Below, piece by piece: positions 10,323 to 10,881 of a stretch of 64,000 nt of DNA. The notes under the pieces were generated by a model, which was given only the letters and a program-made list of their open reading frames with translations, was not told where the DNA came from and ran no database searches. The stretch is taken from contig NW_017566998.1 in NCBI RefSeq assembly GCF_001661265.1, positions 483,627 to 547,626 on the forward strand, read 5' to 3'. The position numbers were made by a program, and so were the translations under genes. Every line of letters starts with the position of its first letter. Position 1 is the first letter of the stretch. The DNA is from Saitoella complicata NRRL Y-17804 (Eukaryota > Ascomycota > Saitoellomycetes > Saitoellales > Saitoellaceae).

Positions 10323-10881
10323 ATGGAAATGGCCGACGCAATGGAAGTCGATACACCACCCAAGGTCGAGGGCGGCGAAGCCCCGGCGGCCGCGGTGGCA
10401 AAGAAACCCGCAAAGAAGAGGTTCGAGGTCAAGAAAGTACGCCTCTGCCGCCCCTCCCCTATCCTCCATCCAAAACTCCTACTAACTCATCTCCTAGTGG
10501 TACGCTTAACAATCGTATTCAGAGAAGGAATTCAGGGACAATCGGGCTGACACTTTGAGCAGGCAATGCGTCGCCCTATGGGGCTGGGACCTCGTCGTCG
10601 ACAACTGCGCAATCTGCCGTAACCACACCATGGATTTGTGTATCGAATGTCAGGCGAATCAGAGTTCGGCGGCGAGTGAGGAGTGTACTGTCGCGTGGGG
10701 TGTGTGTAATGTGAGTCAACTCGAGGCTTTAGCCGAGAGGTAGGAGGAGAAGATGAACAGGGGCTAACGTGGGTTTGGGTAGCATGCGTTCCATTTCCAT
10801 TGTATTTCGAGGTGGTTGAAGACGAGACAGGTGTGTCCGTTGGATAATAGGGAGTGGGAGTGGCAGAAGTATGGTCGTTGA
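10323..10881 (+). CDS. RBX1: RING-box protein Rbx1/Hrt1, SCF ubiquitin ligase subunit
   Basis: Four exons: 10323-10436, 10498-10499, 10563-10710, 10783-10881 (120 aa). The spliced product reads KKRFEVKK-W-QCVALWGWDLVVDNCAICRNH, then CIECQ, ECTVAWGVCN, HAFHFHCISRWLKTRQVCPLD and a QKYGR end: a complete RING-H2 with the extra Rbx1 zinc-site cysteines. It binds cullins and recruits the E2/Nedd8 machinery. The conserved Trp codon is assembled from a 2-nt exon (TG) plus the first G of exon 3. Introns are 61, 63 and 72 bp; intron 1 has a perfect TACTAAC branch and intron 2 a CTGAC. No other joint of 10436 to 10563 keeps frame. The N-terminus before KKRFEVKK is variable in the family. Confidence 0.93.
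10498..10499 (+). other. RBX1: Predicted 2-nt microexon of RBX1
   Basis: The bases TG lie between acceptor CCTAG (ending 10497) and donor GTACGC (starting 10500). They supply two thirds of the invariant Trp codon; the third base is G at 10563. The donor of the preceding intron is also GTACGC. Confidence 0.75.

Follow-up and report, generated by a model that had tools for sequence, protein, structure and literature searches.

Gene Structure of RBX1

The RBX1 gene of Saitoella complicata NRRL Y-17804 contains, with a probability of about 0.92, a genuine, constitutive exon of only two nucleotides, TG, whose flanking introns are removed sequentially. We infer the inclusion of TG in the mRNA, its constitutive use, and the order of splicing from the genomic sequence and from database proteins. 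The analyzed window is a stretch of 64,000 nucleotides, positions 483627–547626 of contig 7 of the genome (14.12 Mb, 34 contigs); S. complicata is an ascomycete of Taphrinomycotina. The gene is read as follows (window coordinates):

10329..10436, + strand: RBX1 coding exon 1 (MADAMEV...FEVKK), ending in phase 0, in AAG AAA
10437..10497, + strand: RBX1 intron 1, 61 nt, GTACGC...TACTAAC...TAG
10498..10499, + strand: putative two-nucleotide exon TG, bases 1–2 of the Trp codon, residue 37 of the product
10500..10562, + strand: RBX1 intron 2, 63 nt, GTACGC...GCTGAC...CAG
10563..10710, + strand: RBX1 coding exon 3, its first G (G10563) completing the Trp codon
10711..10782, + strand: RBX1 intron 3, ordinary, 72 nt, GTGAGT...GCTAAC...TAG
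10783..10881, + strand: RBX1 coding exon 4 (HAFHFHCIS...WQKYGR*), stop TGA

The introns on either side of TG are canonical, with GT..AG ends and a branch site, and in both of them 12 nt lie between the branch A and the 3' end. This anatomy bears out the initial annotation, which had placed TG between two well-formed introns with GTACGC donors and TACTAAC and CTGAC branch sites. Together with G10563, TG gives TGG, that is, Trp within KK-W-QCVALWGWD, presumably corresponding to Trp27 in human numbering. The joined product has 118 aa and matches PF12678 (rbx1-type RING-H2) with 87 bits against a cut-off of 31; its best chain matches are RBX1 (E 2.2e-58), RBX2 (1.9e-26), and APC11 (2.1e-13). Judged by these matches, the product is RBX1. 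The 36 residues encoded by exon 1 are identical to those of the NCBI protein P0001.

Two further features of the gene are seen. An in-frame ATG at position 10323, upstream of exon 1, is a possible alternative start; and intron 2 ends with a tandem acceptor, GAGCAG (10557–10562; GAG at 10559 and CAG at 10562, 3 nt apart), where use of GAG would yield an in-frame form with Cys-Arg replacing Trp.

Splice Models and Reading Frame

The initial annotation had set a single 126-nt intron against the two-nucleotide exon. Removal of 10437–10562 as one intron shifts the RBX1 frame and leads to a stop after 19 residues.

The same result bears on stwintrons and recursive splicing, which leave no exon between the steps; by definition, the complete removal of a stwintron joins the flanking exons in frame. 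A compound 126-nt intron excised completely in two steps would agree with the position of the adjacent introns only 2 nt apart, so that stepwise removal is likely; however, complete removal produces the frameshift and early stop described above, and the inner junction is AG-TG-GT instead of AG|GT, so that two bases remain. The chance that this explanation holds is practically nil. The RBX1 locus resembles stwintrons (PMC5639578) and recursive splicing in having two splicing events close together at one place, but differs in keeping two needed bases.

We enumerated single-intron models with donors from 10380 on and introns of at least 21 nt. In-frame, stop-free pairings are formed by 13 GT-AG combinations (four with introns shorter than 32 nt) and 14 GC-AG combinations, and all 27 lose Trp and alter further residues. 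Hence, the claim in the initial annotation that no other GT-AG pairing keeps the frame does not hold, as 13 pairings do, each without Trp. Their existence is what speaks for one GT-AG intron with different ends and an RBX1 that carries an indel instead of Trp, e.g., 10437–10527 (KKEFRDNRADTLSRQCVALW) or 10421–10562 (KKRQCVALW without RFEVKKW). Yet in every one of these pairings, besides the loss of Trp, either RFEVKKW is altered or extra residues follow it. Neither C nor T precedes the AG of the acceptors at 10524 (GAG) and 10527 (AAG), and the donors at 10395, 10421, and 10428 (GTGGCA, GTTCGA, and GTCAAG, respectively) do not fit GTNNGY. Such an intron is scarcely credible.

Two-intron GT-AG models with introns of at least 35 nt and donors from 10415 on yield six in-frame variants, and the TG exon is common to all six. 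The canonical RBX1 sequence FEVKKWQCVALW is produced by one of them and by none else among the enumerated models. The reading with the two-nucleotide exon is, therefore, the only model found that yields a normal RBX1: skipping of TG shifts the frame, while the in-frame alternatives lack Trp. A transcript that includes TG is expected to read AAATGGCAATGC at the junction, whereas AAAAGGCAATGC or AAAGCAATGC as the main form would speak against inclusion. An RNA-seq data set of 89.3 million read pairs from S. complicata is described in PMC4447899.

Conservation of Trp and the Saitoella Proteins

The conservation of Trp was assessed in the best 120 of 2,395 homologues found. Trp occupies the place encoded by TG and the following G in 118 of these 120 (117 by pattern, and P0049 by eye), as well as in five RBX1 alignments from the chain comparison; the statement of the initial annotation that these bases make Trp is confirmed. 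P0002, a Trichinella record with two RBX1-like domains, was scored by the second domain, which has Trp; its first domain has Ile where RBX1 has Trp. The exceptions among the best 120 of 2,395 are P0001 from S. complicata and P0003 from S. coloradoensis, and nothing else. Both give the impression of models distorted to accommodate an exon that defied modeling.

P0001 has 118 aa, the length predicted with TG, and differs from the prediction solely by Arg in place of Trp (KKRQCVALW). Among all single-intron junctions with an intron start at 10425–10469, P0001 is reproduced by one model alone, 10437–10560, with ends GT..GC. Among two-intron models that keep the usual last acceptor and allow 1–6 nt for the middle exon, 11 also reproduce P0001, but none of these 11 has both introns bounded by a GT or GC donor and an AG acceptor. 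Gene finders rarely yield a GT-GC intron. If P0001 were nevertheless right, a single intron of 124 nt would be removed and Arg would replace Trp, and the database protein indeed carries precisely this sequence. This requires a GT-GC intron, makes S. complicata deviate at a residue retained by nearly all the homologues considered above, and does not account for the two fully formed introns, so that we regard it as very improbable. P0001 may instead derive from a TG-containing transcript (AAATGGCAATGC) placed with one mismatch, so that TG is aligned to the AG that precedes the final G; against this stands that P0001 reads AG where the transcript should read TG.

In P0003, Trp is replaced by 23 residues, VLVRITIVFPQGSGGHGADSLSR, between FEVKK and QCVALW. 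The best junction in the S. complicata DNA for the first nine residues of this insert is 10441–10497, with GC-AG ends and agreement at 8/9 residues. Its acceptor coincides with the 5' edge of the two-nucleotide exon, and TG and intron 2 are then retained. The next five junctions listed agree at 7/9 residues, are shifted by 1–3 nt, and lack GT/GC-AG ends. In S. complicata, this reading runs into a stop inside intron 2, hence, no gene model of this kind is possible there. The insert is as long as GTAC, TG, and a 62-nt intron 2 together; this 62-nt counterpart of the S. complicata intron 2 is readable from P0003, beginning with V-R and ending with S-R. Given this fit and this length, the S. coloradoensis gene, as read from its protein compared with the S. 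complicata DNA, most likely has the same layout with a TG exon.

Outside the junction at TG, P0001 and P0003 align without gaps. Both proteins are distorted exactly at the two-nucleotide exon and in ways that this exon predicts, which makes them the best evidence for it.

Chance Occurrence and Assembly Error

To assess chance, we shuffled the 126-nt segment 100,000 times with dinucleotides preserved and ends fixed, and took 1,996 genomic GT..AG windows of 126 nt for comparison. A split AG-TG-GT with both halves of at least 40 nt occurs in 134 of the shuffles and 14 of the genomic windows; with a GTRNGY donor, it remains in 7/100,000 and 1/1,996, respectively; and with branch motifs in both halves, in none of either set. 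Chance is a poor explanation of the arrangement observed in RBX1.

An error in sequencing or assembly might have left an exon short of two bases, next to a single 126-nt intron; the assembly strings at issue are AAAGTACGC and GAGCAGGCAATGC, and one assembly alone was read at RBX1. However, the S. complicata and S. coloradoensis proteins are gap-free outside the junction, the S. coloradoensis model is distorted at the same place, and it would take a coincidence for TG to sit exactly in position, accompanied by a donor and branch sites. An error of this kind is, in our view, hardly believable.

RNA structure around the two-nucleotide exon does not exceed chance expectation (z 0.81; 155 of 200 shuffles fold equally well or better), and the 64-kb window has no Rfam match at gathering scores. 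The 11-mer TAGTGGTACGC has 2 copies in the genome, against 6 for the reversed control.

Search for Other Microexons and the APC11 Paralogue

We also scanned the window and 200 kb from contig 1, on both strands, for pairs of introns with branch sites, each about 40–100 nt long, that enclose 0–12 nt. The pattern is seen at two places, RBX1 and a candidate 1-nt exon at position 1362, with 0 in the reversed-sequence decoy. The candidate at 1362 was rejected, as one 58-nt intron (1304–1361) gives a continuous histone deacetylase. Other features of the window are:

5–658, + strand: sucrase/ferredoxin-like gene, PF06999
about 655–2182, + strand: histone deacetylase gene, PF00850, 254 bits, with the one 58-nt intron at 1304–1361
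6838–9675, + strand: Rrn6 beta-propeller gene, PF10214
11356–12333, - strand: DPBB_1-domain protein gene, PF03330

A run of N at 3704–4008 lies far from the RBX1 gene. In a search of viral contigs for RBX1 loci, two stretches matched a pattern, and neither encodes a relative.

The APC11 gene of S. complicata (locus L005, contig 21; L005:1420–1669) reads MKVTINSAHFAATWHW (MKVTIN-S-AHFAATWHW) with splice sites chosen by hand, and its family is confirmed by PF12861 (115.6 bits). An ordinary 51-nt intron lies inside the Ser7 codon. In an ungapped by-eye alignment on the later W-x-W, this intron is located 2 nt upstream of the position of RBX1 intron 1, and APC11 has Ala opposite the Trp of RBX1. 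The hand-chosen splice reading of APC11 contains no microexon, and thus provides no sign of co-inheritance with that of RBX1.

Discussion

Proposed Splicing of the Two-Nucleotide Exon

With an exon of 2 nt, the upstream acceptor and the downstream donor cannot be occupied together, as there is no room for this; sequential removal of the two introns would follow. The same argument has been made for the 1-nt exon of APC11 (PMC4674806). Both short introns flanking TG would be recognized across the intron (intron definition). Intron 1 would probably be removed first, as it is transcribed first, its branch site, TACTAAC, is perfect, and its end is rich in pyrimidines. Its removal would leave ...AAATG|GTACGC, an ordinary exon end ahead of intron 2, and removal of the latter would join TG to G and restore the Trp codon.

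The sizes of the two introns were compared with candidate introns in 264 kb. At the strictest setting, 9 of 13 candidates fall at 40–99 nt, with one decoy candidate in all, outside this range; two laxer settings give 55 real candidates vs. 55 decoys and 24 vs. 15. An earlier scan yielded 56 real candidates against 21 decoys (median 89.5 nt), with 20/56 vs. 5/21 at 40–69 nt. Genome-wide, GTACGC is followed by CTAAC 122 times at a gap of 20–49 nt vs. 72 times at 80–109 nt; here, the reversed-pattern controls exceed the real counts (247 and 231), and the contrast between the spacings alone is informative. Although these figures are noisy and weak, lengths of 61 and 63 nt seem ordinary, and introns that look short suit intron definition.

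Skipping of TG may compete with its inclusion, because both introns have the same donor hexamer, and the exon would then be a control point, with the skipped product stopping after 19 residues. We consider such a role most unlikely; if true, the supply of RBX1 and the cullin-RING ligases would depend on how the spliceosome handles two successive introns.

Comparison With Known Ultra-Short Exons

Guo and Liu (2015, PMC4674806) demonstrated the single-nucleotide exon of Arabidopsis APC11 with cDNA and reporter constructs; it is the plant exon mentioned in the initial annotation, correctly in both size and gene. Like the putative exon of RBX1, it is ultra-short, lies between two introns, is needed for the frame, and was missed by annotation; its host gene, too, encodes a RING-H2 subunit, APC11 being related to RBX1 (PMC4674806). 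The two differ in size (2 nt in RBX1 vs. 1 nt), in organism (fungus vs. plant), in gene (RBX1 vs. APC11), and in the kind of evidence, which is experimental for the Arabidopsis exon (PMC4674806), including its constitutive use, and predictive for RBX1 on both counts. Nothing here shows that the parallel with APC11 is more than a coincidence or that the two exons have a common cause. Plant APC11 and VPS55 have 1-nt microexons supported by RNA-seq and RT-PCR; these ultra-short exons are conserved in related species and missing from reference annotations (PMC8831610).

Nelson and Syed (2026, PMC12940212) report a single-nucleotide exon in the CYP621A genes of Fusarium, backed by RNA reads and by 20 orthologues, and regard it as the first in a fungal gene. 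As predicted for S. complicata, a fungal ultra-short exon there splits a codon in a conserved motif, database models are wrong at this place, and what appears to be one intron has over twice the median length (PMC12940212); the differences are that the Fusarium exon has 1 nt, belongs to a P450, and is seen in RNA reads, whereas that of S. complicata has 2 nt, belongs to RBX1, and is predicted. Exons of 2–5 bp are mentioned for Arabidopsis, Drosophila, and humans in the same source (PMC12940212).

A literature search with phrases for a 2-nt exon found no paper in the collection covered; among the matches listed, none joined RBX1 or Saitoella with microexon terms, and none was of use for Trp27 of RBX1. 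The excerpts of PMC8042270 and PMC12409088 contain nothing on 2-nt exons. Ultra-short exons are already known, and we do not claim 2-nt exons as such to be new.

Implications

The interpretation of TG as a two-nucleotide exon, proposed in the initial annotation, is supported by the sole model giving a normal RBX1 and by two database models distorted at this very place, and the S. complicata microexon is very probably real. It would add to the very few ultra-short exons described one of two bases, in the gene for a cullin-RING ligase subunit of a Taphrinomycotina ascomycete. RBX1 is essential in other organisms, and the database RBX1 proteins of both named Saitoella species appear to be wrong at a strongly conserved residue. 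The RBX1 locus is, moreover, a clean natural substrate for studying the order in which splice sites 2 nt apart are used.
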